Assembly: GCA_016235815.1 (NCBI GenBank)
Contig: JACRIM010000055.1
Span: forward strand, 1 to 64,000
Reading direction: 5' to 3'
Length of the DNA stretch: 64,000 bases
Origin: Planctomycetota bacterium
GTDB lineage: Bacteria > Planctomycetota > Phycisphaerae > UBA1845 > UTPLA1
Shown here: piece after piece, positions 3,211-55,325 of the stretch
How positions within the stretch are numbered: position 1 is the first letter of the stretch
How the letters are laid out: each line of letters begins with the position of its first letter
Program-made: the position numbers and the translations under genes
The notes under the pieces: generated by a model
Databases searched by the model: none
The model's input: the letters and a program-made list of their open reading frames with translations, nothing else
What the model was told of the DNA's origin: nothing

Positions 3211-4398
3211 TCAAAACGCCGCGTGGCCGGTTAGTTCGCGGCCGACGATTAGTTCGTGGATCGTCTCCGTGCCTTCGTAGGTGATGACGCTTTCGAGGTT
3301 GAGGGCGTGGCGGATGGGGGAGCATTCGATGCTGATGCCGCCGGCGCCGAGGATGTCGCGGGCGTCGCGGGCGATGTCGATGGCCATGCGGACGTTGTTC
3401 CACTTGGCCATGCTGACCTGGCTGTGGTGCATCATGCCTTGATCCTTCAGGCGGCCGAGTTGCAGGCTGAGCAACTGGGCGAGCGTGATTCGGCGGGCCA
3501 TGTCGGCGAGGCGGCGCTGGATGGTTTGGGTGTGGGCGATGGGGCGGCCGAAGACGACGCGGAGCTTGGAGAACTCCAGCGCCTCCTTGAAGCAGGCGAT
3601 GGCGGCGCCGATCGCGCCCCAGGTGATGCCGTAGCGGGCCTGGGTGAGGCAGCCGAGCGGGCCTTTCAGACCGACGACGTTGGGGAGCATTTGCGAGGCG
3701 GGGATGCGGACGTTGTCGAAGAAGAGTTCGCTGGTGACGCTGGCGCGGAGGGAGAACTTTCGCAGGATGTCGCGGGCGGTGTAGCCGGGGGTGCCCTTTT
3801 CGACGATGAAGCCGCGGACGCCTTCGTCGGTGCCGGCCCAGACGATGGCGATGTCGGCGACGGTGCCGTTGGTGATCCACATCTTGGCGCCGTTGATGAC
3901 CCAGTCGCCGCCCTTTTTCACGGCGTGCGTCTTCATGGTGCCGGGGTCGGAGCCGCCGTCGGGTTCGGTGAGGCCGAAGCAGCCGATGCATTCGCCGCGG
4001 GCCATGCGGGGGAGATACTTTTGGCGATGCTCCTCGGTGCCGTAGGTGAGGATGGGGTACATGCAGAGGCTGCCCTGCACGGAGACGAAGCTGCGGATGC
4101 CGCTGTCGCCGCGCTCGAGTTCCTGGCAGACGAGTCCGTAGCAGACGTTGTTCAGCCCCGCGCAGTCGTAGCCTTCGATGTTGCAGCCGAGGAGGCCGAG
4201 GGCGGCGATTTCGGGGACGAGTTCTTTCGGAAAGCGGTGGTCTTCGAAGGCCTGGGGGATGATGGGGAGGACTTTTTCGTCGACGAATCGGGCGACGGTG
4301 TCCTGGATCTGTTGTTCGTCTTCGGAGAGGAGGGATCGGGTGTTGAAGTAGTCGAGGGCTTCGGGGGTTTCGGTCATGAGGGGGGCGTGGGCGGTCAT
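3211..4398 (-). CDS. gcdH: Glutaryl-CoA dehydrogenase
   Basis: A 395-residue acyl-CoA dehydrogenase. It is assigned to the glutaryl-CoA branch because it has the family signature around IRSFVSVQGSLCMYPI, with Arg102 at the position that binds the substrate gamma-carboxylate. It also carries the FAD/acyl-CoA loop CFGLTEPDGGSDPGTM (about residues 139-154) and Glu375 in TYEGTETIHELIVG as the catalytic base. It would oxidise and decarboxylate glutaryl-CoA to crotonyl-CoA in lysine/tryptophan breakdown, with electrons passing to ETF. The start has AAGGAG about 9 bases upstream. It stands alone; a hairpin repeat lies in its upstream region. The length is normal for the family. Confidence 0.92.
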   Translation of the reverse strand: MTAHAPLMTETPEALDYFNTRSLLSEDEQQIQDTVARFVDEKVLPIIPQAFEDHRFPKELVPEIAALGLLGCNIEGYDCAGLNNVCYGLVCQELERGDSGIRSFVSVQGSLCMYPILTYGTEEHRQKYLPRMARGECIGCFGLTEPDGGSDPGTMKTHAVKKGGDWVINGAKMWITNGTVADIAIVWAGTDEGVRGFIVEKGTPGYTARDILRKFSLRASVTSELFFDNVRIPASQMLPNVVGLKGPLGCLTQARYGITWGAIGAAIACFKEALEFSKLRVVFGRPIAHTQTIQRRLADMARRITLAQLLSLQLGRLKDQGMMHHSQVSMAKWNNVRMAIDIARDARDILGAGGISIECSPIRHALNLESVITYEGTETIHELIVGRELTGHAAF

Positions 4399-4419: not shown

Positions 4420-4481
4420 CACAGGTTGGAAACCTGTGGTACAGATCACCGGTTGGAAACCGGTGCCACATACGGTGCCAC
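4420..4481. repeat. Twin-hairpin repeat, copy 1
   Basis: Hairpin A, CACAGGTTGGAAACCTGTG (4420-4438), has an 8 bp stem and loop GGA. Hairpin B, CACCGGTTGGAAACCGGTG (4447-4465), has the same geometry. They are joined by GTACAGAT and followed by CCACATACGGTGCCACATA. The copy sits between gcdH and the kinase gene, just upstream of the gcdH start. Confidence 0.9.
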
Positions 4482-4544: not shown

Positions 4545-7136
4545 TCAGGGCGTGGATTGGGCCACGGTTGCGGTGAGTTTGGTTCGCCACGCCTGGGCCT
4601 TGTCATGGTAGCCGTCGTTCGGCTGAGCGGCGTGCCATGCTTCGTAGCAGGCGATAATCGGAGGGATCAGTTCCTGGGTTCGGCTGTTGGCCGATCCTAA
4701 TTTGGCCTCCAGCGTTGAATGGCCCCTGAGCAGGAGCGCTTCGGCTTCAGTGAATCTTCCAAGTTTCGCGAGGCATTCGCCAAGATTGCTGGCACGAACG
4801 CCGACTTGCGGATGAGACTCTGGATATGCTTTTGACGCGACGGCCAATGATTCTCGAAACAGCGGCTCGGCGGTTTGATAGTCCTCCTGGTCGGCGGCAA
4901 TTTTGGCAAGATTGCCGAGGCTGAGCGCGATGATGTAATGGTCGGGGTCGAGGTGCTGCCTGGCGAGGGCGAGGGCGCGCTGCGCGAATGAGCCGGCGGC
5001 GTCCCAGTCCTTTTGATTGCGTTTGACGTTGGCAAGGTTGTTGAGCAGCAGCATCGCTTGTGGATGTTCGTCCCCGAGAACATTTTCCGTGATGGCGAGG
5101 GCTTCGCGATACATGCTTTCCGCCTCAACCAGCCGGCCGGGACCTTCAATGAGCGCTGCGAGGTTATTAAGGCTCATGGCGACGCTGGCATGCTCATTCC
5201 CATAGAGGCGTCGGCGCATGGCGAGGGATTCCTTGTAACACGCTTCGACATTCTGGAAGTCGCCTCGTCCCCAGCGGGCAAACCCGAGGGCATGAAGTCC
5301 GCGGGCGATCTCGGCATGATCCCCCTTGAAGATGCGGCGTCCGCGCTCGATGGCTCGTTGGGCTGTTTGCTCGGCCTCGAGGTAATGACCGGTGGAATGA
5401 AGTGACTCGGCCAGACTGATTTCGGTGGTGACGATGAGTTCGTGGTCGTCTCCGAGCAGATTTCGTCGGATGCCAAGGGCCTGAGTCATAAGGGGCAGGG
5501 CTTCGGCGTAGCGCGTCTGTTTCATTCGAAGGGCGCCCAGGCCGGCAATGCTCGCGGCGGTGTCCAGGTGATTGACACCAAAGAGTCTCGTGCGCAGCGT
5601 GAGGGCTTTCTGCAGATGCGGTTCGGCGGCGTCGTAAAGCCCCAGGGCCAAGTAAACGCGTCCCAGTGTGTCTCGAAGGGAAGCCTCCACATCGGGCTGG
5701 TGTGTGAGGTCTCGTTGCAGTTTTCCTGACGCATCGTCGAGCATGGCACGCAGTGTCGGAAGATCCCTGGTTCGGTAGATGCCGGTCGATGGATTAATCG
5801 AGGCCAGCATGTTATTGAGGAAATGATTGATATCCTGTGCTTTTTTAGCTTCGGCTTTGGCGCGGTCGCGTTCGTCGGCGATGCGAGTGGACTGAATCGC
5901 GGCGACGACTGCAAACCCGGCGACCAGTAAGAAGACGAGCGCGGTGAATGCGACCGTGACGGTGTTTCGACGGACGAACTTGGCGAGGCGGTAGGCGCGG
6001 GTATCGGGCCGGGCGGTCACGGTTTGGCCGTTGAGATGACGGCGGATGTCGTCCGCAAGATTGTCCACGGTGGCGTAGCGCCGGTGCGGCTCTTTGCGCA
6101 GCGCCTTGAGAACGATGGTGTCGATGTCGCCGGCGAGCGCTCGCTGCAACTGGCGGTGACTGAGTCCGCAGGGCGGTGTTTCGGCGGCCGGAACCGCCTG
6201 ACTTGGCGGGAGTGACTGGACGTTGCAAATGACCCGTTCGTATTCGGTCAGTGAATGACTGTTGAATCGGTGTGGACGCATGCCGGTAAGCAATTCATAG
6301 AGCACGACGCCGAGCGAATAGACATCACTCGAGGTGGTGACGGGTTCGCCGCGTATCTGTTCGGGTGAGGCGTATTCGGGCGTCATGGGGCGCTGGTCGA
6401 AGCGGGTCATGCTGACGGTCCGGCCACCGGCGTCGTCTTCGAGAACTTTGGCGATGCCGAAGTCGAGCAATTTCACCGCGCCGTCGGCGGTGATGAGAAT
6501 GTTGGCGGGTTTGAGGTCGCGATGGACGACGAGGTTTCGGTGGGCGTATTGAACCGCGGCGCAGACATCCTGAAACAGGCGGAGCCGTTGACGAATGGTC
6601 AGGGATCGTTGATTGCAGAAGTCGGTGAGCGGCGTACCGTCGATGTGCTCCATGACGAGGAACGGGAGGCCGTCGTCGGTGGCGCCGCCGTCGTGGAGAC
6701 GGGCGATGTTGGGGTGTTCGAGGCGGGCGAGGACTTGTCGTTCGGCGTGGAATCGTCGGAGGACGTCGTCCGTGTCCATTCCGCGTTTGATGAGTTTGAT
6801 GGCAACTTGCTTTTTGAATTGGTCGTCGGCCCGGTCTGCGAGCCAGACGGAGCCCATCCCGCCGACGGCAATCTGGCGGATCAGTCGATAGGCGCCGATG
6901 CGTCGGCCCGCGTTGTCGGGGATTGCGTCCCTCGTGTGCGGCGATCCATGAGGGGTTGTGGGGCAGCTTAGAAATCCGGATGCATTGTTGTCATAGGCGA
7001 GAAGCGATCGAACTTCGTCGCGTAGTTCCATGTCGCTGCCGCAGGCCTGTTCGAGGAAGGCCTCGCGTTTGTCGGCGGGCAATTCGGCGGCGCGGTTGAA
7101 GAGGTCGTTTACCTGTTTCCATCGTTGCGGGGCCAT
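4545..7136 (-). CDS. Membrane Ser/Thr protein kinase with C-terminal TPRs
   Basis: The 863-residue product has an N-terminal segment, a complete Hanks-type kinase domain (about 82-365), one membrane segment (about 391-414) and a long C-terminal run of tetratricopeptide repeats of the kinesin-light-chain type (about 480-840). The kinase shows the glycine loop AVGGMGSVW, Lys114 in VAIKLIK, HRDLKPAN with Asp207, DFG with Asp225, and TPEYASPEQIRG in the activation segment, so it should be active. A TTG at 7166, overlapping the sigma factor stop, is an alternative start; I prefer the ATG at 7136 (MAPQRWKQVNDLF), which matches the usual beginning of this family. It is coupled to the ECF sigma gene upstream and probably shares a signalling path with it. 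Confidence 0.9.
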   Translation of the reverse strand: MAPQRWKQVNDLFNRAAELPADKREAFLEQACGSDMELRDEVRSLLAYDNNASGFLSCPTTPHGSPHTRDAIPDNAGRRIGAYRLIRQIAVGGMGSVWLADRADDQFKKQVAIKLIKRGMDTDDVLRRFHAERQVLARLEHPNIARLHDGGATDDGLPFLVMEHIDGTPLTDFCNQRSLTIRQRLRLFQDVCAAVQYAHRNLVVHRDLKPANILITADGAVKLLDFGIAKVLEDDAGGRTVSMTRFDQRPMTPEYASPEQIRGEPVTTSSDVYSLGVVLYELLTGMRPHRFNSHSLTEYERVICNVQSLPPSQAVPAAETPPCGLSHRQLQRALAGDIDTIVLKALRKEPHRRYATVDNLADDIRRHLNGQTVTARPDTRAYRLAKFVRRNTVTVAFTALVFLLVAGFAVVAAIQSTRIADERDRAKAEAKKAQDINHFLNNMLASINPSTGIYRTRDLPTLRAMLDDASGKLQRDLTHQPDVEASLRDTLGRVYLALGLYDAAEPHLQKALTLRTRLFGVNHLDTAASIAGLGALRMKQTRYAEALPLMTQALGIRRNLLGDDHELIVTTEISLAESLHSTGHYLEAEQTAQRAIERGRRIFKGDHAEIARGLHALGFARWGRGDFQNVEACYKESLAMRRRLYGNEHASVAMSLNNLAALIEGPGRLVEAESMYREALAITENVLGDEHPQAMLLLNNLANVKRNQKDWDAAGSFAQRALALARQHLDPDHYIIALSLGNLAKIAADQEDYQTAEPLFRESLAVASKAYPESHPQVGVRASNLGECLAKLGRFTEAEALLLRGHSTLEAKLGSANSRTQELIPPIIACYEAWHAAQPNDGYHDKAQAWRTKLTATVAQSTP

Positions 7137-11814: not shown

Positions 11815-13023
11815 ATGAAGGTTGCACTGGTTCATCATTGGCTCACCGGGATGCGCGGCGGGGAGAAGGTGTTGGAGGCGTTGTGCGAACTCTTTCCGGC
11901 GGCGGACATCTTTACGCTGGTGTGTGATGAGGGGCGGATCAGCGAGAAGCTGCGGCGGCATCGGATTGTCACGTCATTTATTCAGCGGTTGCCATTTGGG
12001 CGGACGAAGTTCCGGGGGTATCTGCCGCTGTTTCCGATGGCGGCGGGGCAGTGGGATTTCTCGGGGTATGACCTTGTTCTGAGTTGTGATGCGAGTTTGG
12101 TGAAGGCGGTGCGCGTGCCGGACGGGACGCCGCATGTGTGTTACTGCCATTCGCCACCGCGATATCTGTGGGATTTGTACGAGCTGTATCGCAGCCGCGA
12201 GGCGAGCGCGGTGCAGCGTTTGCTGATGCCGGTGGTGGCGAAGTATTTGCGCGGCGTGGACTATCGGGCTGCGCAGCGGGTGACGCATTTCATTGGGAAT
12301 AGTCGGGCGGTGGCGGAACGGATTGCGCGGCATTATGGACGCGAGGCGACGGTGGTTTATCCGCCGGTGGAGACAAAGTTTTATGAGGAGAGTCACAGGT
12401 TGGAAACCTGTGTTACAAACCACCGGTTGGAAACCGGTGCCACAGAGAAAAGGGGCCAAGGGGCCGAGGGACCAAGGGTTTCCGCCACGGCGGATCGTCG
12501 ACAAGAGGAGGAAGGGTATTACCTTTTTGTGGGGCAGTTGGTGGCGTACAAGCGGGCGGACTTGGCGGTGGAGGCGATGGCGGAGTTGGGGCGGCGGTTG
12601 GTTGTGGTGGGAGATGGCCCACAGCGCGGGCGGTTGGAGCGGTTGGCGCGCGGCGGTGTGACATTTGCGGGGGCGGTGTCGGATGAACGGCTGCGCGAGT
12701 TGTATGCGGGGTGTCGGGCGCTGGTGTTTCCGAATGAGGAGGATTTTGGGATCGTGCCGGTGGAGGCGCAGGCGGCGGGTGCGCCGGTGATTGCGCTGGG
12801 GCGCGGCGGCGGGTTGGAGACGGTGGTAGATGGGGTGACGGGTGTGCATTTCGCGGATGAGAGCGTTGCCGGATTGGTGGAGGCGGTGCGGCGGTTCGAG
12901 GCGATGGAGGATGAGTTTACGGTGGAGGCGTGTCGGGCGAATGCGCGGCGCTTTGAGAAGGGCGTGTTCATGGAGGCGATGGGCGAGTATGTGGCGAAGG
13001 TGATGCGAGCGCGATATGAGTGA
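11815..13023 (+). CDS. GT4 family glycosyltransferase carrying an in-frame repeat insertion
   Basis: The 402-residue protein has the two Rossmann domains of GT-B enzymes. The N-domain starts MKVALVHHWLTGMRGGEKVL; the C-domain has FVGQLVAYKRADLAVEAM, VVGDGPQRGRLERLA and the nucleotide-sugar motif FPNEEDFGIVPVEAQAAGAP, where the first Glu pair is expected to contact the donor. It probably builds a surface or exopolysaccharide, adding a sugar such as mannose from a nucleotide donor. Between the domains, after VVYPPVETKFYEE, about 40 residues (HRLETCVTNHRLETGAT and on to RRQEEE) are encoded by a twin-hairpin repeat and a second GC-rich repeat. The frame stays open. Without this stretch the length matches the family. 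Confidence 0.88.
   Translation: MKVALVHHWLTGMRGGEKVLEALCELFPAADIFTLVCDEGRISEKLRRHRIVTSFIQRLPFGRTKFRGYLPLFPMAAGQWDFSGYDLVLSCDASLVKAVRVPDGTPHVCYCHSPPRYLWDLYELYRSREASAVQRLLMPVVAKYLRGVDYRAAQRVTHFIGNSRAVAERIARHYGREATVVYPPVETKFYEESHRLETCVTNHRLETGATEKRGQGAEGPRVSATADRRQEEEGYYLFVGQLVAYKRADLAVEAMAELGRRLVVVGDGPQRGRLERLARGGVTFAGAVSDERLRELYAGCRALVFPNEEDFGIVPVEAQAAGAPVIALGRGGGLETVVDGVTGVHFADESVAGLVEAVRRFEAMEDEFTVEACRANARRFEKGVFMEAMGEYVAKVMRARYE
12394..12514. repeat. Twin-hairpin repeat, copy 2, inside a glycosyltransferase gene
   Basis: Hairpin A is at 12394-12412 and hairpin B at 12421-12439, identical in sequence to copy 1, with linker TTACAAAC. They are followed by a GGCCAAGGGGCCGAGGGACC repeat to about 12475 and then CGCCACGGCGG. 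The insertion keeps the reading frame and lies in the linker between the two enzyme domains. Confidence 0.9.
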
Positions 13024-13040
13024 TCCGTTTTGTGACGGAC

Positions 13041-13134
13041 CACAGGTTGAAAACCTGTGGTACAGGACACCGGTTGAAAACCGGTGCCACAAGAATCGGG
13101 CGCGGCATGGCCACAAGAATCGGGCGCGGCATGG
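13041..13134. repeat. Twin-hairpin repeat, copy 3, with 24 bp tandem duplication
   Basis: Hairpin A (13041-13059) and hairpin B (13068-13086) have loop GAA instead of GGA with stems unchanged. Directly after, a 24 bp segment beginning CCACAAGAATCGGGCG is perfectly duplicated (13087-13110 and 13111-13134). The second copy contains the likely start codon of the following gene. Confidence 0.9.
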
Positions 13135-15023
13135 TTGAGCGCGAAACGACGAGTCGGTGGTGGTTGGTCGCGTGCGTGGCGGTCGGGGCGGCGGTGCGCG
13201 TGTATCTGGCGATGACGGCGACGCTGATTTCGCGCGATGCGGTGGTGTATGTGACGATGGCGCGGCGGATGGTGACGGACTGGCGGGCGGAGCTGGCGCA
13301 GGATTATCCGCTGGGGTTTCCGTTTTTGATTCGGTGCGTTCACGCGATTGTCGGGCCGATGTTGGGCGGTGATGTGGTGATGGGGTGGCAGCGGAGCGGG
13401 CAGATTGCGAGCCTGCTGTTTGGGGTGTTGTCGATTGTGTTGGTGTATTGGATTGCGCGGCGGGTGGTCGGCGAGCGGGCGGCGGTGTTTGCCGCGTGGA
13501 TTTGGGCTTTGCTTCCGCAGGCGGCAGCGCTGAGCGCGGATGCGTTGACGGATGTGCCGACGGTGACGCTGATGATCGCGGGGGTGTTGGCGGTGATGCG
13601 CGGGATGGACAGCGGGCGCGCGGGATGGTGGTTGTTTGCAGGACTCTTGAGTGGCGCGGCGTCAACGATGCGGCCGGAAGGGGCGGAGGTGGTGTTGGTG
13701 GGGCTTGCGGTGTTGATGTTCAAACGTCGAAACGTCGAAACGTCGAAAAGTCGAAATGACGCGAGGGAACAGGGAATAGGGAACAGGGAACCGGGGGAGA
13801 AAGGCACGGAGGCACTGAGGCAAAGCGGCACAAAGGGGGGAGAGACGCCGCATGGCGGTTGGCGAAGGACGTTTGGCGCTGCGGCGGCGTTGGTGGTGGG
13901 ATTTGGGGTTATTGGGGGGAGTTATATTCTGCTTGAGGGCGGGCGCGTTCTGCACAAACAGACGTGGATGGGGGAGGCGCGGGCGGGGAATGGTTCGTTG
14001 GTTGGTGGGCGCGATGCGATCGTGATGCGCGCGAATGATCATGGATCTGTCGCCCCTTCGGGGCTGGGGGTTTCCAACGTGAGCGACCACGGGGTCTCCC
14101 AGGCGACTCTTCGACTTGCGCCCTCGGCTATTGGCTGTCGCCCTTGCAGGGCTGAAGGCGCGGGTATCTATGCGGGCGCAGGGGTGTTTTCGGCGGTGGG
14201 GTTGGTGGTTGAGAAGACGTTTGGGTCGCTGAATGGAGTGTGGATGATTTGGGGGACGGCGTGGCTGGTGGTGAGATTGTGGGCGCGAGGACGGGGAAGG
14301 TACGAGAAGGGATTCTCGTACCCGCGAGGGAAGGGATTCTCGTACCAGCGTGGAAGGTACGAGAAGGGATTCTCGTACCAGCGGGCGCTTGCGGGAAGCA
14401 ATGGAGTTGTGGCGGGGATGTGGTGGAGTTTGCACGCGGCGGTGCTGGTGTGGTTCGCGATGCGCGCGGGGTATGTCTCGAGCCGGCATTGTCTCGTTCT
14501 GGATGTTTGCTTCGTGGTTTTATCGGCGGGGATGTTGGCGTGGATCGGTGCATCGGTGGGCACGGTGGCCCGCCCCACTGAGGCTGGGGAGATGCGTGGT
14601 CAAAGTCGTACGAGTTCGCCTGCTCGGTGGATTGGCGTTGCTGTGTTGGTGGTGAGTTGTGCGGGGCTTACGCCACGATTGTTGCGCGATATTCACGAAG
14701 GGCGCGGGTATGTGCGCGAGGCGGCGGCGTGGATCGCGAAGGAGAATGGCGGCGAGGTGAATCGCGGGATTGTCGCCGTAGATGGGTGGGTGCCGTTTTA
14801 CTCGGGGGCGATTCATTGGGCGGGGTGCGAAACGGCGGCGGGGCTTTCGGCGTGCGCGGAGTTGGGGGATTCGGCGTGGTTGGTTTTGCCGAGCAATGAA
14901 AAGGCTGCGGAGCGCGTGCGAATTGAGGCGACGGGGCGGACCGTGACGCTGAGCGAGGCGGCGCGATTTGGGGAGGCGAGTGGGCGACGGGGATTGGTGG
15001 TGTATCGCGTGGGGCGGGAATAA
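13131..15023 (+). CDS. Multi-pass membrane glycosyltransferase (GT-C, GT39/83-like) full of repeats
   Basis: About 630 residues with roughly ten membrane helices. The N-terminal part has the hallmark layout of lipid-linked sugar transferases: a first helix, then TLISRDAVVYVTMARRM with an acidic pair facing outside, and LSADALTDVPTVTLMIAG. It probably transfers a sugar from a polyprenyl-phosphate donor on the outer face of the membrane. Start at 13131 (MVERETTSRW); 13107 is an alternative ATG made by the 24 bp duplication. No clear Shine-Dalgarno is present because repeats replace the upstream sequence. At least four different repeat families are embedded in frame (13721-13836, 14040-14162, 14299-14383, about 14562-14585), adding low-complexity linkers between helices. 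It follows the GT4 gene on the same strand. Confidence 0.8.
   Translation: MVERETTSRWWLVACVAVGAAVRVYLAMTATLISRDAVVYVTMARRMVTDWRAELAQDYPLGFPFLIRCVHAIVGPMLGGDVVMGWQRSGQIASLLFGVLSIVLVYWIARRVVGERAAVFAAWIWALLPQAAALSADALTDVPTVTLMIAGVLAVMRGMDSGRAGWWLFAGLLSGAASTMRPEGAEVVLVGLAVLMFKRRNVETSKSRNDAREQGIGNREPGEKGTEALRQSGTKGGETPHGGWRRTFGAAAALVVGFGVIGGSYILLEGGRVLHKQTWMGEARAGNGSLVGGRDAIVMRANDHGSVAPSGLGVSNVSDHGVSQATLRLAPSAIGCRPCRAEGAGIYAGAGVFSAVGLVVEKTFGSLNGVWMIWGTAWLVVRLWARGRGRYEKGFSYPRGKGFSYQRGRYEKGFSYQRALAGSNGVVAGMWWSLHAAVLVWFAMRAGYVSSRHCLVLDVCFVVLSAGMLAWIGASVGTVARPTEAGEMRGQSRTSSPARWIGVAVLVVSCAGLTPRLLRDIHEGRGYVREAAAWIAKENGGEVNRGIVAVDGWVPFYSGAIHWAGCETAAGLSACAELGDSAWLVLPSNEKAAERVRIEATGRTVTLSEAARFGEASGRRGLVVYRVGRE
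13721..13836. repeat. Three short-repeat types in tandem inside a membrane protein gene
   Basis: 13721-13758 repeats CGAAACGTCGAAAAGTCG as at the left end of the window. 13765-13798 repeats the unit AGGGAACAGGGAA. 13800-13836 is GGCACGGAGGCACTGAGGCA with its continuation, again repetitive. All are read in frame as a charged, low-complexity linker. Confidence 0.8.
14040..14162. repeat. Hairpin-bearing repeat in a membrane protein gene
   Basis: The segment contains GCCCCTTCGGGGC (about 14053-14065) and GCCCTTGCAGGGC (about 14141-14153), two perfect short hairpins separated by about 75 bases. It is translated in frame as a Ser/Arg/Cys-rich loop that does not resemble the surrounding membrane protein. 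Confidence 0.7.
14299..14383. repeat. Array of GGTACGAGAA palindromes in a membrane protein gene
   Basis: A 24-base hairpin, GGTACGAGAA + GGGA + TTCTCGTACC, occurs at 14299-14322 and 14356-14379. A half copy (AAGGGATTCTCGTACC) lies between them at about 14331-14346. The array is read in frame, giving the repeated peptide RYEKGFSY. Confidence 0.9.
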
Positions 15024-15063: not shown

Positions 15064-16557
15064 TTAATCGGCCCGCGAGCTAGGGCTGCGCGGTTCGAGC
15101 TGATCCATGGGTACCCCGAGGCGTTGGAGGGCGGGGGCGAGGTCTTTCATTCGGGTGATGCCGGGGACTTGGCCGGTCGTAGACATGACGAAGCCGGAGG
15201 AGCCGGGGCGGCCGAGGTTTCCGTGGGCGGCCTGGATGTCGACCAGCGCGGTTTGCAGTTTGCTGCCACAGTGCCAACCATCTGACACCGCGAGCATCAC
15301 GTCGGGCGGATTCACCATGAGGCCGTGGAAGGCGCGCCAGAGTCGCTGCACAGCGTCGGGGTAGTCGTGCGTTTTTGTTGCCTCGAAGAGCGCGGCGTCG
15401 TCGATCCAGCCGTCGGGGTCGGCGAGTTTGGTGATGATAGGGGAAAGGCGCAGCGGGTCGCCGGATTCGCAGGTGTACCGGTATTTGTTGTTGGCATGGG
15501 CGATGGTGGCGCGGGCTCCGTTTCGGGCGAGCACGACGACGCGGCCCTGGGCATCGAGGTACATCGTTTGTTCGATACCGTCGATGCCGATGCAGTCATG
15601 GGCGACGGTCTGCGCCTCGCGCGTGTAGACGCCGGCGTAAGTGACGACGCCGAACTCGGGGACGATGACGTCGCCGGGTTTTTTCAGTTTTGAGACGAGG
15701 CGATAGCCGGCGCGCGAAAGTGTTTCGCTGAGCGGGACGCGCTTGCTTGGGACGAGTGCGTGGCCGTGGTCGGAGAGGAGGGTGATCTGGAGTTTGCCGC
15801 GTGATTCCCACATGAGTTGTTCGCACATTCGGTCGACGCGGATGAGGCTGGCGAGGTGGCCGTTGCGGCCGAAGTTGGCGCCGAGGGCGGAAGTGCCGAC
15901 AGCGTAACCGATGAATGGGTTTTGCTTGCAGGCCAGGAAATACTTCTGAATGAAGTGCAATTCGTGGTCGAACCAGGGATCGGGGCGGAGGTAGGCGATC
16001 GCATGGGCGAAGTTAATCATGTGATAGTCGGTGCGGGCGAGCCAGACGCAGTTGCGCTCGTTGGCGTAGTTGTCGTAGCCTTCGCGCAGGCCGGTCGCAT
16101 CGGCGTATTCGGATTCGGCGCCTGGGCAGGGTGAGACGCCGAAGAACTCGGCGAGGGAGAGGTCGGTCATCACAGGGAAGGGGCTGATGGTGCAGCTTGG
16201 CGGGTGGAAGAGTCGGAAGCGGCCGGCCTGCCAGAGATTCTCCATCACTTCGTAGGGGACGCTGTCGAGGATGATGAGCAGGTGGCGGTCGTCGGGGTCG
16301 GCGGTGAGGCGGTTGATTTCCTGGTCGAATGTGCCGTCGGCGTTGGTGTCGAAGTGGAGGACGGTTACTCGGCCATCCGTGTTGAGGCGCTGGGCGTAGT
16401 CGGGTTTGCCGTCGCGGTTGGTGTCGTAGAGGCGTTCGGCGCCATCGGGGGTGGAGCGCGATTCAGTGGGTGTGACGGGGAACATGCGCGGGCCGGGGCC
16501 GGCGCAGGCCAGCGGGGCGAGGAGGACGAGTAATAAGAAGCGGATGCGCGGTGACAC
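15064..16557 (-). CDS. Lipoprotein of the alkaline phosphatase / phosphodiesterase superfamily
   Basis: A 497-residue exported protein. The N-terminus has a lipoprotein signal with lipobox LACAG (Cys18), so it should be anchored in a membrane. Two calcium-binding-like loops follow (DTNRDGKPDYAQ and DTNADGTFDQE). From about residue 90 the alkaline phosphatase-type fold appears: LLIILDSVPYEVM holds the first metal-binding Asp and the position of the nucleophile, LLSDHGHALV holds the Asp-His pair, and GRPGSSGFVMSTTGQVPGI near the C-terminus resembles the last metal-binding block. The usual nucleophile Thr/Ser is replaced by Ser in DSVPYE, which is acceptable. It may hydrolyse phosphodiesters or phosphonates outside the cytoplasm; the substrate is not clear. 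Confidence 0.72.
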   Translation of the reverse strand: MSPRIRFLLLVLLAPLACAGPGPRMFPVTPTESRSTPDGAERLYDTNRDGKPDYAQRLNTDGRVTVLHFDTNADGTFDQEINRLTADPDDRHLLIILDSVPYEVMENLWQAGRFRLFHPPSCTISPFPVMTDLSLAEFFGVSPCPGAESEYADATGLREGYDNYANERNCVWLARTDYHMINFAHAIAYLRPDPWFDHELHFIQKYFLACKQNPFIGYAVGTSALGANFGRNGHLASLIRVDRMCEQLMWESRGKLQITLLSDHGHALVPSKRVPLSETLSRAGYRLVSKLKKPGDVIVPEFGVVTYAGVYTREAQTVAHDCIGIDGIEQTMYLDAQGRVVVLARNGARATIAHANNKYRYTCESGDPLRLSPIITKLADPDGWIDDAALFEATKTHDYPDAVQRLWRAFHGLMVNPPDVMLAVSDGWHCGSKLQTALVDIQAAHGNLGRPGSSGFVMSTTGQVPGITRMKDLAPALQRLGVPMDQLEPRSPSSRAD

Positions 16558-16606: not shown

Positions 16607-16684
16607 CACCGGTTGGAAACCTGTGATACGGATCACCGGTTGAAGCCCTGTGACACAGACCACCGGTTGAAAACCGGTGCCACA
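16607..16684. repeat. Twin-hairpin repeat, copy 4, with three units
   Basis: Three related units lie in a row: 16607-16625 (CACCGGTT...AACCTGTG, mismatched ends), 16634-16652 (degenerate, CACCGGTTGAAGCCCTGTG) and 16661-16679 (perfect, loop GAA), then CCACA. The first unit looks like the left half of hairpin B joined to the right half of hairpin A. Confidence 0.85.
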
Positions 16685-16697
16685 GGGAGAGGGTGAG

Positions 16698-18002
16698 TCA
16701 TACGACGTCGAGGGCGTCTTCGAGGTCGGCGACGATGTCTTCCCAGTCTTCGAGGCCGCAACTCAGGCGGATGCCGCCGGGGAGGATGCCGCGTCGGCGC
16801 ATTTCGTCGGGCGGGATGGCGGAGTGGGTCATGATGAAGGGGCATTCGACGAGGGTTTTGATCTGGCCGAGGCTGACGGCGAGGCTGATGGCGTAGGAGT
16901 TCTGGGCAATCCAATCGACGAAGCGTTCGCCGACCTTTCCGTCGCCGGCGCGATCCTTGAGCACGAAGTACAACATGCTGCCGGGGGTGAAGTGGCCCTT
17001 GGTGTCGCGCATCTGCTTCTTCGCGAGTGCGAATTGAGGAAAAGTTTCGAGGCCGGGGTAGAGAACGCGCTCGATTTTGGGATGGCGCACGAGGTGGTCG
17101 GCGACGCGGTGGGCGGTCTTCTGGTAGTTCGCCATGCGGGCGGCGAGCGAGGGCAGGCCGTAGACGAGTGTGGCCCATGCGGATTTGGGGGAGAGGATGC
17201 CGCCGAAGTCTTTGCGATACATGAGGAGTCGGTTGCGCAGATCGTGCGAGGTGATGACCGCGCCGCCGATGTCGGTGCCGAAGCCGCCGATGCCCTTGGT
17301 GAGGGAGTGGCAGACGACGTCGGCGCCGAATTCGATGGGTCGCTGGCAGTGCGGCGTGGCGAAGGTGTTATCGACGATGATGCGGATGCGGTGCATAGGC
17401 TCGCGCGGTTTGTTGGCATCGGCAACGACGGCGGCCACGGCGGCGATGTCGATGAGGGTCATGTCGGGGTTGACGGGGGTTTCGAAGTAGACGACGCGGG
17501 TGCGCGGGGTGATGGCGTTGCGTAGGGCGTCGATGTTGGTCAGGTCTTCGAAGGCGACTTTGATCTGATTGCGCGGGAGCCAGTTGGTCATCAGCGAGTA
17601 GGTGCAGCCGTAGAGGACGCGATGGGAGACGATGTGGTCGCCGGTTTCGCAAAGAGTCATGAGTGCCGCGGAGATGGCACCCATTCCGGAGGCGAAGCAG
17701 AGGGCGGATTCGCCTTTTTCGGCGGCGGCGAGGTTGTCCTCAAGCATGGAGCGGGTCGGCTCTTCGAGCCGGTCGTAGATGTAAATCGGATCGTGTGTGT
17801 CGGCGGAGTCGTGGGCAAAGTCGCAGAAGCCCTGCGCGCCGCGGGCGGCGGATTCGAGCCGGAAGGTCGCGGAACTGGTTATGGGCGGGACGACGTGGTG
17901 GGAGTAGTCCCAGCGGCGGCTACGGGACTGGCCGTGGATCATGCGGGTTCGGGGGTGGGCGCGGGTTTCAGAGTTTCGGGCGGGTTTGTCGTCGGCTGGC
18001 AT
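16698..18002 (-). CDS. Cys/Met-metabolism PLP enzyme (trans-sulfuration family)
   Basis: A 434-residue member of the cystathionine gamma-synthase / methionine gamma-lyase family. Visible motifs are YIYDRLEEPTRSMLEDNLAA (substrate/PLP phosphate region), ALCFASGMGAISAALMTL, YFETPVNPDM, IIVDNTFATP with the PLP-stacking Asp, and HSLTKGIGGFG with the Schiff-base Lys. The C-terminus SCGLEDWEDIVADLEDAL is typical. Family members make cystathionine or homocysteine, or degrade methionine; the sequence alone does not decide between them. AAAGGAG lies about 8 bases upstream of the ATG. It stands alone and is divergent from the ABC permease. Confidence 0.88.
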   Translation of the reverse strand: MPADDKPARNSETRAHPRTRMIHGQSRSRRWDYSHHVVPPITSSATFRLESAARGAQGFCDFAHDSADTHDPIYIYDRLEEPTRSMLEDNLAAAEKGESALCFASGMGAISAALMTLCETGDHIVSHRVLYGCTYSLMTNWLPRNQIKVAFEDLTNIDALRNAITPRTRVVYFETPVNPDMTLIDIAAVAAVVADANKPREPMHRIRIIVDNTFATPHCQRPIEFGADVVCHSLTKGIGGFGTDIGGAVITSHDLRNRLLMYRKDFGGILSPKSAWATLVYGLPSLAARMANYQKTAHRVADHLVRHPKIERVLYPGLETFPQFALAKKQMRDTKGHFTPGSMLYFVLKDRAGDGKVGERFVDWIAQNSYAISLAVSLGQIKTLVECPFIMTHSAIPPDEMRRRGILPGGIRLSCGLEDWEDIVADLEDALDVV

Positions 18003-23608: not shown

Positions 23609-25606
23609 TCACTGTAGCATGGCGGCCATGTCGTTGGCGAGGGCGCGCGATGGAGCGTGCGAGGGCATCAGCGTGACTGCTGTGTCGGCGGCATTCTTGG
23701 CTTCGCGGATGTGGGCGCGGGCGTCGGAGAGATTTCCCGCTTTGGCGGCGGCCTGACCGAGGTTGGCTTCGCAGATGGCGAGGAAGTACCACGCGTCGTG
23801 ATAGTCGGGGGCGAGGCGAACCGCTTCGCGCATGAGTTCGGCGGCGGCGGCGTGGTAGCCGAGGGCGAGGGGGACGTTGACGGCGGTGCCGAGGGAGAGG
23901 GCTTTGGTGTAGGCCGGTTCGTCGTAGGCGGCGATCCACTTCTTGGGATCGAGGTCGGCGGCGGCGGGATGGTTTGCCTTGATGACATCGACGTGTGCGG
24001 GGATGCGGCGGGCGAAGATGACGGCCTGCGGGTCGAAGTAGACAAGTGCCCAGTTGGTGTAGTCGGCGACGAGACGCATGACGAGGGGCTGGGTGTCGGG
24101 GCCGACGTGGAGGAGTGCCACATTGATGGCATCGCGGTCGAAGATGTCGGCGTGCGGACGTTTGGCAAGGCCGAGGTCGAAGGCGGCGGCGAGGGTTTCC
24201 TCTTTGTAGGCGAAGGTGTTGGTGTCGACGAAGAGTTTGAAGCGGTCGGGCAGCCAGGGGAGTGTGTTGCTCGATGAGAAGTAATCGACGAAGAGATTGG
24301 GTTGGAGCGAGGGTTGTGCGGCGAGCCAGTTGACGGCGTCGGTGGTGAAGGTGCGCGAGGAATAGCCCGTGCCGAATTGGCGGGTGATGCGGCGTTCGGA
24401 ATAGTAGAAGCGGCCGTTGACGAGGCCGACGGTCCACCAGAGGGAGAGGGCGGTGAGGATGATGGATTGGGCGAGAGACCGCAGGTTGGAAACCTGCGGT
24501 ACAGGACACCGGTTGGAAACCGGTGCCACAGCAGAAGTGCGAACCGGTGCTACTAATCGGCGCGCGGCGATGGCGCCAAGGGCCAGTGGTGCGCCTGCGA
24601 GGGCGAATTGGGCGATGTTGCGACGCATCTGGAAGGACATCGCGGCGAAGAGGATGAGCAGGAGCATGGGGGCAAATCGGCGGCGAATGAGACAGGCAAT
24701 GAGGCCGATGACGACGACGGCGAGGAGGACATAGTAGGCGTGCATGGTGCGGGCGTTGATGAACTCGCCGACGTAGCGAAAGGGCGAGTGGAATTCGGAG
24801 ATGAGAGACCAGGCGCTGATTGCCGTATCGTTGGGTCCGCCGGCCATGGCATTGGTACGGCGGAGGTAGGAGAGCGTTTCAATCGGAAAGGATGCGCCGC
24901 GCCAGCCCCAGGGGTTGAAGAAGCAGGCGATGAGTTGGGCACCGAAGGTCCAAAGGCGCGTTCGCAATGTTGTAGCGCAAACAGGATCGCGAGCGCCGGT
25001 GAGCGATGCGATCAGATCGGGCAGCAGGAATGCACCGGCGATGAAGAGGCCGACGAGGAAATAACTGTGCAAGTTCACCCAGGCGATTTGCAGGATGACG
25101 ATGGCGACGGCGCGGCGGCGGGTGAGCGTCGGGCGAGCGAGCAACGCGAGCATGGGCAGCATGATGGCGTAGCTGAAGAGTTCGGGTCGGAGGCCGAATC
25201 GTTCGTAGGCGGCCGCTCCTGCCAGGAGCCATGTTGCCGCGAGCCAGAGGAGCGAGCGCGTGAATTGGCGAAGCACGAGTGCGATGGCAGCGAAGGTGAT
25301 GATCGTGAGCGCGGTGCGCAGGGCAATCAGCCCCGCAGAACCGGCGGCGCGATGAGCGATGGCCATGATGATCTGGCTGCCCCAGTTTGCATTCACGAAG
25401 GTGACGGCGTTTTGCGGGAGAAGGAAGGGATCGCGGTCGACGATCTTGCCGTGAGTGAGGAAGTGTTGGCCGTAGGCGAGGTGGTAGCCGGTATCAAGGC
25501 TTTCGATCTTGTGCCAGGAGAGGGCGAGGACGAAGACGGCGACGGCGATGCAGGCGAATGCGCCAAGGAAATCACGGCGTGCGGGATTGTCACTCGCGGG
25601 GGGCAT
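23609..25606 (-). CDS. Multi-pass membrane protein with C-terminal TPRs and repeat insertion
   Basis: A 665-residue protein with about ten membrane helices in the first 430 residues (for example GAFACIAVAVFVLALSW near the start) and a soluble C-terminal part ending in TPR-type helices (about 560-665). The layout resembles planctomycete proteins related to GT-C glycosyltransferases or O-antigen ligase-type enzymes, but no catalytic motif is certain. Between helices, after GAIAARRLV, about 25 residues (APVRTSAVAPVSNRCPVPQV and on) are encoded by a twin-hairpin repeat (24480-24530), in frame. A role in envelope polysaccharide or protein glycosylation is plausible only. Confidence 0.75.
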   Translation of the reverse strand: MPPASDNPARRDFLGAFACIAVAVFVLALSWHKIESLDTGYHLAYGQHFLTHGKIVDRDPFLLPQNAVTFVNANWGSQIIMAIAHRAAGSAGLIALRTALTIITFAAIALVLRQFTRSLLWLAATWLLAGAAAYERFGLRPELFSYAIMLPMLALLARPTLTRRRAVAIVILQIAWVNLHSYFLVGLFIAGAFLLPDLIASLTGARDPVCATTLRTRLWTFGAQLIACFFNPWGWRGASFPIETLSYLRRTNAMAGGPNDTAISAWSLISEFHSPFRYVGEFINARTMHAYYVLLAVVVIGLIACLIRRRFAPMLLLILFAAMSFQMRRNIAQFALAGAPLALGAIAARRLVAPVRTSAVAPVSNRCPVPQVSNLRSLAQSIILTALSLWWTVGLVNGRFYYSERRITRQFGTGYSSRTFTTDAVNWLAAQPSLQPNLFVDYFSSSNTLPWLPDRFKLFVDTNTFAYKEETLAAAFDLGLAKRPHADIFDRDAINVALLHVGPDTQPLVMRLVADYTNWALVYFDPQAVIFARRIPAHVDVIKANHPAAADLDPKKWIAAYDEPAYTKALSLGTAVNVPLALGYHAAAAELMREAVRLAPDYHDAWYFLAICEANLGQAAAKAGNLSDARAHIREAKNAADTAVTLMPSHAPSRALANDMAAMLQ
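24480..24530. repeat. Twin-hairpin repeat, copy 5, with compensatory change
   Basis: Hairpin A here reads CGCAGGTTGGAAACCTGCG (24480-24498): the usual A and its partner T have changed to G and C together, so the stem is kept. Hairpin B (24507-24525) is the standard form, ending in CCACA. It is embedded in frame in a membrane protein gene. Confidence 0.92.
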
Positions 25607-38013: not shown

Positions 38014-38148
38014 TTCTTTCGCGGCGTCGCCGGGGGCAAAACAACGCGACGCTGCGTTTGGGATGGGCGTGTTCCATCCGTGGTATTCGGGCGATTCGGG
38101 CCTCGCCGACACTTAGAGCATCCTGACAGTAACGACTCGCACCCAGTG

Positions 38149-38165
38149 CAAACCGGTGCCACAGG
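38149..38165. repeat. Half copy of the twin-hairpin repeat
   Basis: AAACCGGTGCCACAGG matches the right half of hairpin B and its CCACA tail. The left half is missing. It lies 32 bases upstream of the rho start. Confidence 0.55.
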
Positions 38166-38196
38166 CGGATCAGGGCGCTCGCTTTTCAGGTTATGT

Positions 38197-39342
38197 ATGA
38201 ATCAACCCAATGGAAGTGTGACGGGCACCTTCGAGCTTGGTCAGAACAATTCGGGCTTTTTGCGCGATCCGGGCCGCAACTATGCGATCCAGGCGAGCGA
38301 TCCGCAGGTCGGGCGCGATCTGGTGCAGAAGTTCCGGCTTCGCGGCGGCGAGACGGTGACGGCCCAGATTAATCGCGGCAAACAAGGCCGCGGGCAGCCG
38401 ATGGTGGGCTTCATCGAGAAGATCGGGGGCAAGCATCCGTCCGAGTATGCGAAGGTGGTGCCGTTTGACGAATTGCAGGTGGTGCATCCGGATCAGAAGC
38501 TGAACTTCGAGACGCCGGGCGGGCCGATGTCGACGCGGATCATCGATCTGCTCGCACCAATCGGGAAGGGCCAGCGCGGGCTCATCGTCGCACCGCCACG
38601 GACCGGCAAGACGGTGCTGCTGCAGCAGATGTCCAACGGCATCAAGATCAACCATCCAGAGATCTTTCTCATGATGCTGCTCATCGACGAGCGGCCCGAG
38701 GAAGTGACGGAGATGAAGCGGGCCTTGTGCAAGGAAGGATCGGGCTGGCAGCACGATGCGCCCGAGGTCGTCTATTCCAACAATGACAGCGACGTGAAGA
38801 GCCACGCGCGGATCAGCAAGCTGATGATCGAGAAAGCCAAGCGGCATGTGGAACTCGGCGAGGATGTGCTCATCCTGCTTGACTCGCTCACGCGGCTCGG
38901 CCGGGCGTTTAACAACATCGTCGGGTCGAGCGGGCGCACGATGACGGGCGGGCTTGATATTCGGGCGATGGAAGCGCCGAAGCAGATGTTCGGCTCAGCG
39001 CGGAAAATCGAAGGCGGCGGCAGTCTGACCATCGTGGCGAGCGTGCTGGTGGAAACGGGCAGCCGCATGGACGAATACATTTTTCAGGAGTTCAAGGGCA
39101 CCGGCAATATGGAACTGGTGCTCAGCCGCGAGCTTGCGAACATGCGCATCTGGCCGGCGATGAACCTGTCAGAGAGCGGCACGCGCAAGGAAGAGTTGCT
39201 GCTGGGTCAGCAGATGTACGACAAGATGTCGCGTATTCGCCGCCGACTTCTCAACATGCAGCCGCAGAAGCAGATGGAGAGCATGTTGGAGGAGTTGACC
39301 AAGTGGAAGACGAATCAGGAATTCGTGGGGCAGTTGGCGTAG
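38197..39342 (+). CDS. rho: Transcription termination factor Rho
   Basis: A 381-residue hexameric RNA helicase that ends transcription. The RNA-binding OB fold is present (GFLRDPGRNYAIQASDPQV, RLRGGETVTAQI), followed by the ATPase core: Walker A VAPPRTGKTVLLQ, LLIDERPEEVTEM, ILLDSLTRLGRAFN, and the Q/R-loop regions ASVLVETGSRMDEYIFQEFK and GTGNMELVLSRELA. Compared with the about 420-residue E. coli protein it lacks the extreme N-terminal helical domain. The ATG at 38197 (MNQPNGSVTGTFEL) is chosen; in-frame codons upstream run through repeat sequence. Confidence 0.93.
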   Translation: MNQPNGSVTGTFELGQNNSGFLRDPGRNYAIQASDPQVGRDLVQKFRLRGGETVTAQINRGKQGRGQPMVGFIEKIGGKHPSEYAKVVPFDELQVVHPDQKLNFETPGGPMSTRIIDLLAPIGKGQRGLIVAPPRTGKTVLLQQMSNGIKINHPEIFLMMLLIDERPEEVTEMKRALCKEGSGWQHDAPEVVYSNNDSDVKSHARISKLMIEKAKRHVELGEDVLILLDSLTRLGRAFNNIVGSSGRTMTGGLDIRAMEAPKQMFGSARKIEGGGSLTIVASVLVETGSRMDEYIFQEFKGTGNMELVLSRELANMRIWPAMNLSESGTRKEELLLGQQMYDKMSRIRRRLLNMQPQKQMESMLEELTKWKTNQEFVGQLA

Positions 39343-53675: not shown

Positions 53676-53720
53676 CACCGGTTGGAAATCCACCATGGCG
53701 GATATTGGACCGGTGCCACA
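53676..53720. repeat. Twin-hairpin repeat, interrupted copy
   Basis: Hairpin B is split: CACCGGTTGGAAA (53676-53688) and CCGGTGCCACA (53710-53720) are separated by about 21 bases that are themselves nearly palindromic (TCCACCATGGCGGA). It ends 3 bases before the likely start codon of the next gene. Confidence 0.75.
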
Positions 53721-53723
53721 AGT

Positions 53724-55325
53724 GTGGACGTTGCGGCGCTGGCGTTGATTGCGCTGTTCGTGGGGTCGATGAGTCTGCCGGGGATCACCCATGGCGGCTT
53801 GGGGTGGTCGGATGCGCCGAATCATGCGCTCGATGGCGTATTCGTTTACGAGTTTGTGAAGCAGTGGCCGATCGCGCACGCGCGGGAGTGGGCCGAGCAG
53901 TTCTACCTGCGCTATCCGGCACTGGGGATCATCGTGTATTACCCGCCGGGGTTTGCGGTTGTGGAGGCGGGGGCGTTCGCACTTCTGGGCGTGAACATTG
54001 TTTCGGCGCGGTTGACGGTGGTGCTGTTCGCGGTCGGCGCGGGCTGGTTGATGTATTTGCTGGGGCGTCGGTGGTTTGATCGACCGACGGGGCTGTTCGC
54101 GGGGTTGCTGTTGATCACCTGTCCGCATGGGTTCCTCTGGATGAACGACGTCATGCTGGAGTGGCCGGCGACGTTTTGGATTCTGGCGAGCGTGTATTGT
54201 TTTGAGCGCGATCGGGCGGCGGCGCATGCGCGGTGGGCGATTGCGCTCGCGGCGTGCGCCGTCATGGCGTATCTCACGAAGCAGACGGCCGGGTTCATTC
54301 TGCCGGTGTTGGGAATGTATGCGTTTGTTGCACGGCTGCCGCGAGCTTATTTCGTGAATGTGGCGCGCGCTTTGTCGATGGTGGTCGCGGTCGGAGTCAT
54401 TGCGGCGTACCACGTCGCGACGAAGAAGTATGCGGCGTTGCCGTCGCATCTGCTGGCGACGTCGGTGGATATTCACTTCTATCCGCGGCATCTGCCGGAG
54501 ATTCTCGGTTGGCCGCTGTTGGGCGTGGCGCTGCTGGGGATGGTCACCATGGCAGCGCGGCTATCGCGGGGACCGGGTTCGCTGCTCATGTTGTGGTTTG
54601 TCGCATGGGCGGGTTTCAGCACCGTGATCGCCGCGAAGGAGCCGCGGTATTTCTTTTTTGCGATCCCGCCGATGGCGTTTGCGGCGGTGCGATTTTTCCT
54701 ACCGGCCGCGGGAGCGGTGATCTCCTGGCGCGCCGACAAGGCGAGGATTGTGTTGCTGGCGGCGCTGGTGTTGGTGCAGGCCGGCATCGCGCGGGCGCGC
54801 GATGTGGGGCGGTTACCGCGATTTGAGGGCGCGGTGGAGGAATTGGTAGGTCGCACAGATGCGGATGTCGTGCTGGTCGATGCGGTGCGCGACGGACAGG
54901 TGGCGTTTGATATCTACCAGAATGAAGCGGCGCGAAAGCGGATTCTCATGCTGCGGGCCAGCAAGATGCTCTATGCCCGAGCGGCGCGGGAGAAGTACGA
55001 CTATCAGCAGTTCGTCGAAAGCGAGTCGAACATCGTTCGACTGCTCGACCAATACGGAATTCGCTACATCCTCATCGAGTCCGCCTATCCCGCAACACCG
55101 TATGTCGATGCCGATCCGCCGCCGCGAAAGATGCTGCGCAATCTGCTGACGAGCGACCCGCGTTTCCGGCTGGTGAGGGCGTGGCCGATGCGCTGCGGCG
55201 ACCCGATCTGGAACGACGTGGAGCTGCGGCTTTATCAATATCCATCGTGCCCGGCGCGGGGGTCGAAGATGATCAAGCTCTCGATCCCGGCGATGGGGCG
55301 GGAGGTGACGTTCGAGTTGCCGTAG
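53724..55325 (+). CDS. Multi-pass membrane glycosyltransferase (GT39/ArnT-like)
   Basis: About 533 residues with roughly ten membrane helices, then a soluble C-terminal domain (about 375-533). The first outer loop has GWSDAPNHALDGVFVYEFVK with an acidic pair and YYPPGFAVVEA, as in GT39/GT83 enzymes. MNDVMLEWPATFWILASVYC matches the second conserved loop. It would transfer a sugar from a polyprenyl donor outside the membrane. The soluble domain may bind the acceptor. A GTG at 53724 is the best start in this frame; the frame upstream runs through a repeat, so the true start may be lost or different. Confidence 0.78.
   Translation: MDVAALALIALFVGSMSLPGITHGGLGWSDAPNHALDGVFVYEFVKQWPIAHAREWAEQFYLRYPALGIIVYYPPGFAVVEAGAFALLGVNIVSARLTVVLFAVGAGWLMYLLGRRWFDRPTGLFAGLLLITCPHGFLWMNDVMLEWPATFWILASVYCFERDRAAAHARWAIALAACAVMAYLTKQTAGFILPVLGMYAFVARLPRAYFVNVARALSMVVAVGVIAAYHVATKKYAALPSHLLATSVDIHFYPRHLPEILGWPLLGVALLGMVTMAARLSRGPGSLLMLWFVAWAGFSTVIAAKEPRYFFFAIPPMAFAAVRFFLPAAGAVISWRADKARIVLLAALVLVQAGIARARDVGRLPRFEGAVEELVGRTDADVVLVDAVRDGQVAFDIYQNEAARKRILMLRASKMLYARAAREKYDYQQFVESESNIVRLLDQYGIRYILIESAYPATPYVDADPPPRKMLRNLLTSDPRFRLVRAWPMRCGDPIWNDVELRLYQYPSCPARGSKMIKLSIPAMGREVTFELP

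Follow-up and report, generated by a model that had tools for sequence, protein, structure and literature searches.

The REP elements of Stenotrophomonas maltophilia (REP_Sm) combine an 8-bp palindrome with a 3-nt loop and a GTAG tag (PMC8266576). REPs have also been described within genes, and palindromes inserted in frame are tolerated in loops or linkers (PMC3733652). A survey of TnpA_REP proteins described a subclass 2.4, in which REPs lie in frame inside the tnpA gene, and reported class 3 Y1 proteins in planctomycetes; the same survey set aside 'unexpectedly long' proteins, which it regarded as fusions or errors of annotation (PMC6006769). The repeat family investigated here was found in a 64,000-nt stretch of planctomycete DNA (the window, which covers bases 1-64000 of C38, a contig in a 4.58-Mb draft genome; this genome was also the target of the whole-genome scans). 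It shares with the GTAG REPs and REPtrons of the REP_Sm kind a GTGG/GTAG tag abutting the 5' side of a perfect 8-bp palindrome, a 3-nt loop, a high copy number, and a RAYT between inverted copies. In contrast to REPtrons, the copies form direct dimers and arrays that do not alternate, and the RAYT is not free-standing but lies in frame inside purH. An in-frame palindrome, as at window position 12394, is also a feature of intragenic REPs and Rickettsia palindromic elements, but those consist of the palindrome only, whereas here a complete transposase gene occupies the host frame. REPs in frame with a RAYT are common to subclass 2.4 and the present case, although the nesting is reversed here, with the RAYT inside a host gene.

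The repeat unit has the form CACNGGTT-GGA-AACCNGTG, with a stem of 8 bp, a loop of 3 nt and a pitch of 27 nt in tandem; on the opposite strand it reads TGTGG-CACCGGTTTCCAACCGGTG, with the tag 5' of the hairpin. An earlier sequence-only reading of the window had listed seven sites with two adjacent hairpins of this geometry, and we recovered all seven at the same coordinates, with the same stem and loop lengths. The core GGTTGGAAACC (at most 1 mismatch) is over-represented in the window, with 12 matches versus 0.96 expected, an approximately 12-fold excess that was reached by none of the shuffles.

That reading also proposed that the reading frame of the repeat differs from gene to gene, which the window bears out only in part. 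The direct dimer at 12394..12444 (+) lies in frame within a group-1 glycosyltransferase frame (11815-13023, +), where it encodes the peptide HRLETCVTNHRLETGAT and separates the Pfam domains Glyco_transf_4 (amino acids 14-188) and Glycos_transf_1 (amino acids 229-379). Two sites are intergenic. The direct dimer at 4420..4470 (+), consisting of hairpins at 4420-4438 and 4447-4465 and a CCACA tail (on the minus strand, a TGTGG tag followed by a hairpin), is located between a frame ending at 4545 and a frame starting at 4398, both on the minus strand. The triple at 16607..16684 (+), with units at 16607, 16634 (degenerate) and 16661, is located between two minus-strand frames, 15064-16557 and 16698-18002. 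Three further copies mark the upstream margins of open frames: a direct dimer with GAA loops at 13041..13091 (+) at this margin of a PMT_2-type frame (13020-15023, +), a half unit (AAACCGGTGCCACA) at 38149..38163 (+) towards the upstream end of a Rho-like frame (38080-39342, +), and an interrupted unit (CACCGGTTGGAAATC...GACCGGTGCCACA) at 53676..53720 (+) at the upstream margin of a PMT-type frame (53682-55325, +). The half and interrupted character of the last two copies had been recognized correctly. The direct dimer at 24480..24530 (+), in which the outer stem is CGC..GCG, overlaps a minus-strand frame of 665 aa that has no Pfam match. The window also contains a different hairpin-like sequence at 14050-14120 (CTGTCGCCCCTTCGGGGCTGGG ... 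CTGTCGCCCTTGCAGGGCTG), possibly another palindromic family.

To characterize the unit, 85 distinct copies were sampled from the genome. The 5' tag is GTGG in 62 of these and GTAG in 3, any GT is present in 81, and the tag is preceded by T in 74. The variable stem pair covaries (A-T in 36 units, C-G in 33, T-A in 8, G-C in 3, mispaired in 5), and the stem is maintained via compensatory change. No T-run was found 3' of the window hairpins, and the only match in an Rfam scan of the window was a tRNA. The dimers in the window and the arrays inspected elsewhere are direct repeats with all tags on one side, and the alternating or inverted orientation that characterizes BIMEs was not seen in them. 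Hence, of the suggested likeness to REP/BIME elements, the REP part is borne out by tag, copy number and RAYT, and the BIME part is not, the dimers being direct and not alternating. From their sequence, we class the hairpins as REP elements of the GTAG type, organized as direct dimers or arrays.

The genome holds 300 single units (at most 3 mismatches) versus 4 for a reversed-pattern control, and 27 exact twins versus 0. BLAST returned 91 matches to the twin, and the largest array noted comprises approximately 11 units (C58:143971-144337). The family is a short palindrome of 20-40 bp in high copy number, as is expected of REPs, and the 300 units dispose of the earlier proviso that only a few copies might exist. 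Counts in 113 relatives range from 0 to 281, so the hairpins are not a constant, conserved trait. Nearly all named public contigs with the same twin, as detected by a hairpin pattern scan, belong to Phycisphaerales/Planctomycetota assemblies, and we take the bacterium studied here to be a planctomycete of the Phycisphaerales type.

The genome contains 10 places with a Y1_Tnp match, and the surroundings of all were inspected. Window-type hairpins adjoin one of them (C21:82466-82630, part of a longer RAYT at C21:82346-82792) and were not found near the other matches. Inverted twin hairpins at C21:82234-82282 and C21:82808-82857 flank this RAYT, which is the hairpin-flanked Y1 transposase that the sequence-only reading had proposed to look for. 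The RAYT lies between inverted copies of the REP (C21:82234-82857), the arrangement expected of a REPtron, and the same arrangement is present at the same purH site in genomes G019 and G077. The host frame is purH itself, an essential gene of purine synthesis (L068:3324-5705 on C21), 793 aa in length and open and in frame throughout, in the order PurH-RAYT-PurH. Pfam recognizes in it MGS and, in two pieces with the Y1 domain between them, AICARFT/IMPCHase; the NCBIfam equivalog PRK00881 scores 589 bits against a cut-off of 402. PF01808 has a single place in the genome, this RAYT-bearing purH, which is therefore single-copy. The RAYT has no stop codon of its own. Mapped onto PurH of M. tuberculosis (3zzm), the insertion point lies between residues 269 and 276 and immediately precedes the KHxNPCG strand, so that the insert adjoins a catalytic motif of the AICARFT domain.

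The RAYT carries the motifs HVH and YMEANP, with HuH and Tyr intact. A profile built from the nested RAYTs matches TnpA_REP of E. coli (4er8) with an E-value of 1e-7, and the purH copy scores 75.2 bits with NF047646 (REP-associated tyrosine transposase), just below the cut-off of 80 bits. AlphaFold, given a public-contig PurH-RAYT but no alignment, yielded an uninformative model (mean pLDDT 35), and querying named genome contigs with the RAYT protein gave no confirmed match.

We surveyed the purH site in 114 genomes of the order, in 102 of which purH is present. A RAYT occupies the same PurH loop in 26 of the 102, with 16 of type A, 3 of type B and 7 of type C. The purH frame is open across the RAYT in all carriers except G050, where it is broken inside the RAYT (G050:C141, L209), which could reflect decay or a draft error. 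Some draft contigs stop within the insert, and two carriers, G002 and G013, are single-contig assemblies. Assembly chimaeras can be ruled out as the source of the nested frames, which appear in many independent drafts and in the two single-contig genomes. Public contig JADZBE010000002.1 (L133), the sequence of which is identical to G077, independently showed the same arrangement. Only REP-like peptides remain at the site in G015 (HRLSAGAT/HRLMAGAT) and G068. On a PurH tree built without the insert, the labels require 20 changes, the minimum possible being 4, and types A, B and C are intermixed with empty sites; this rules out once-only vertical inheritance, and gain, loss or replacement of the purH RAYT must therefore have been frequent. 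Each of the 22 purH RAYTs that were assessed has inverted hairpins on its two sides, weak ones in three of type B, and the lengths of the linkers around the RAYT differ widely among genomes.

Residues H56, H58, Y121 and N125 are invariant in 15 rows of types A and B that share 44-67% identity with the first row; a HuH histidine is missing from one (G061) of the seven rows of type C. For the pair G013/G002, omega of the RAYT is 0.144 (95% CI 0.083-0.229), compared to 0.111 for the C-terminal part of PurH and 1.35 for the linker. Because dS of the RAYT equals that of PurH in this pair (0.68 and 0.65), the RAYT was inherited vertically in it. Other pairs gave RAYT omega values of 0.1-0.2 with high or saturated dS, and in the closest pairs omega is higher in the repeat linkers than in the RAYT. 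The low omega together with the invariant catalytic residues indicates that the amino acids are conserved and not just the frame, and the nested RAYTs are predicted from these sequence features to be active as transposases.

Strong matches to the nested-RAYT profile in the order are almost all within long frames. Host genes identified by HMM are ileS (L256 and L264, in the CP1 region, and L257, before KMSKS), leuS (L271, L289), valS (L287, L288, L293), alaS (L074, in the window's own genome, L295, L296, L298), gcvP (L268, L270), rarA (L269), and a DNA methylase (L273); additional host loci were assigned by eye from motifs. NF047646 scores exceed the 80-bit cut-off within ileS, leuS and gcvP, and reach 76.9, just under it, within rarA. 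Inverted hairpins surround the RAYT in 21 of 21 tested non-purH hosts (scores 18-33 versus at most 12 in shuffles). The alaS of the window's genome (L074, G000:C34, 811-4524, −) is a 1238-aa frame that contains a class-3-like Y1 RAYT in frame, flanked by perfect 26-bp inverted repeats; this RAYT has a second REP family (GAGCCGCGACCGTCAGGGAGCGG) with 60 genome copies (at most 3 mismatches) versus 0 in the control. The W[TA] and YVxxxQ-like motifs of class 3 Y1 proteins resemble those of the type C nested RAYTs. A 1686-aa alaS frame (L295, G029:C11, 2280-7337, −) holds two nested Y1 RAYTs, G019 has RAYTs nested in ileS, valS, gcvP and purH together (L264, L293, L270 and L088), and in-frame RAYTs occur within large DNA methylase-like proteins (L265, L266, L273, L274). 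Elsewhere in the phylum, RAYTs sampled across its breadth are almost exclusively free-standing. Nesting was not seen as a phylum-wide trait: just a handful of approximately 150 listed NF047646 places are in frames longer than 450 aa.

Possession of the repeats and of the transposase was compared across genomes. A type A purH RAYT is found in 10 of 17 genomes with at least 20 hairpins versus 3 of 97 others (Fisher p = 7e-8; the threshold of at least 20 was set post hoc and the test ignores the relatedness of genomes). The flanking hairpin sequence changes between genomes along with the RAYT. Four hairpin-rich genomes, G014, G006, G102 and G104, have no purH RAYT, and the purH RAYT is therefore not required for the repeats to persist; they can remain after its loss or depend on a different enzyme.

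Very probably, then, the hairpins are REPs, their cognate recombinase is the RAYT in frame in purH, and the same solution was reached repeatedly in essential genes of the order. The REPs would be single-strand recognition sites composed of a 5'-GTGG tag and an 8-bp hairpin, usually in direct dimers. The recombinase acting on them is most likely the HuH/Y1 RAYT inside purH, and the arrangement suggests that it acts on the window copies as well. In the simplest reading, the RAYT would be made as an extra domain in the PurH loop immediately ahead of the K-H-x-N motif in the AICAR transformylase domain, because it has no stop of its own; PurH and RAYT would, as the continuous frame suggests, be translated as one chain, in which PurH would still be functional. 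Residence in an indispensable gene would secure expression and would prevent loss by frameshift or stop, since PurH would be broken along with the RAYT. RAYTs of several types, accompanied in each case by a REP family of their own, appear to have repeatedly occupied the purH loop and loops in alaS, ileS, valS, leuS, gcvP and rarA.

A rival possibility is that the REPs are real and the purH RAYT is a passive passenger, a single insertion that is no longer active and stays open only because purH requires an uninterrupted frame. Selection on purH to remain open would by itself clear stops and frameshifts, and remnants without a RAYT exist, for example in G015. Such selection cannot preserve amino acids, however, and the RAYT omega of approximately 0.14-0.2, exceeded by the repeat linkers in the closest pairs, and the invariance of the catalytic H, H, Y and N in 15 diverse type A and B rows make a passive passenger unlikely. 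We consider it slightly less likely still that the insert is removed before PurH works, by RNA or protein splicing or by ribosome bypass between the hairpins, leaving the RAYT as a separate product. The inverted hairpins that bracket the RAYT and the position of the insert next to the catalytic motif of the AICARFT domain would fit such removal, but the frame runs unbroken through the hairpins, the RAYT and both flanks, which a bypass or an intron would not need; intein families are absent from the Pfam scan of the genome's own frame and the NCBIfam scans of nested frames, and the linker length varies widely between genomes.

Several copies in the window are intergenic, as would be expected if the hairpins were ordinary terminators, attenuators or protein-binding palindromes without relation to a transposase. 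Terminators as such are ruled out by the absence of a T-run after the hairpins, and this reading as a whole is highly improbable: some copies are within coding frames, tandem arrays extend to approximately 11 units, the 5' tag is present in 81 of 85 sampled units, and in three genera one and the same purH site holds a RAYT between inverted copies.

Returning to the interpretation of the hairpins as REPs served by a RAYT housed in purH, inteins with homing endonucleases offer a comparison: in both, a mobile-element enzyme sits in frame within essential genes at a site that recurs, with a patchy distribution and several gains or losses. Here, in contrast, the enzyme is of the HuH/Y1 kind, it has REP hairpin flanks, no splicing domain was found, and the insert apparently stays in the protein. 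We lean towards regarding these genes as a non-splicing analogue of inteins, in which REP transposases of this order are permanently housed within essential enzymes (PurH and several tRNA synthetases), form in-frame domains of them and repeatedly re-occupy the same loops, the host supplying gene, promoter and a guarantee against loss. REPs within genes are already known; what appears to be new here is the residence of the RAYT in a host enzyme. Our search, which most subscription papers fell outside, returned no published account of a RAYT nested in purH or another host enzyme, and RAYTs residing in frame within essential enzymes appear to be undescribed so far. The exclusion of long proteins from the survey mentioned above (PMC6006769) may have concealed nested RAYTs, and, more generally, automatic annotation or length filters may conceal a transposase class inside housekeeping proteins. 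The loops concerned in PurH and in the alanyl-, isoleucyl-, valyl- and leucyl-tRNA synthetases accept approximately 200 or more extra residues. For the long-term persistence of RAYTs at low copy number without IS-like movement, frame-locking in an essential enzyme would provide a concrete, testable answer.
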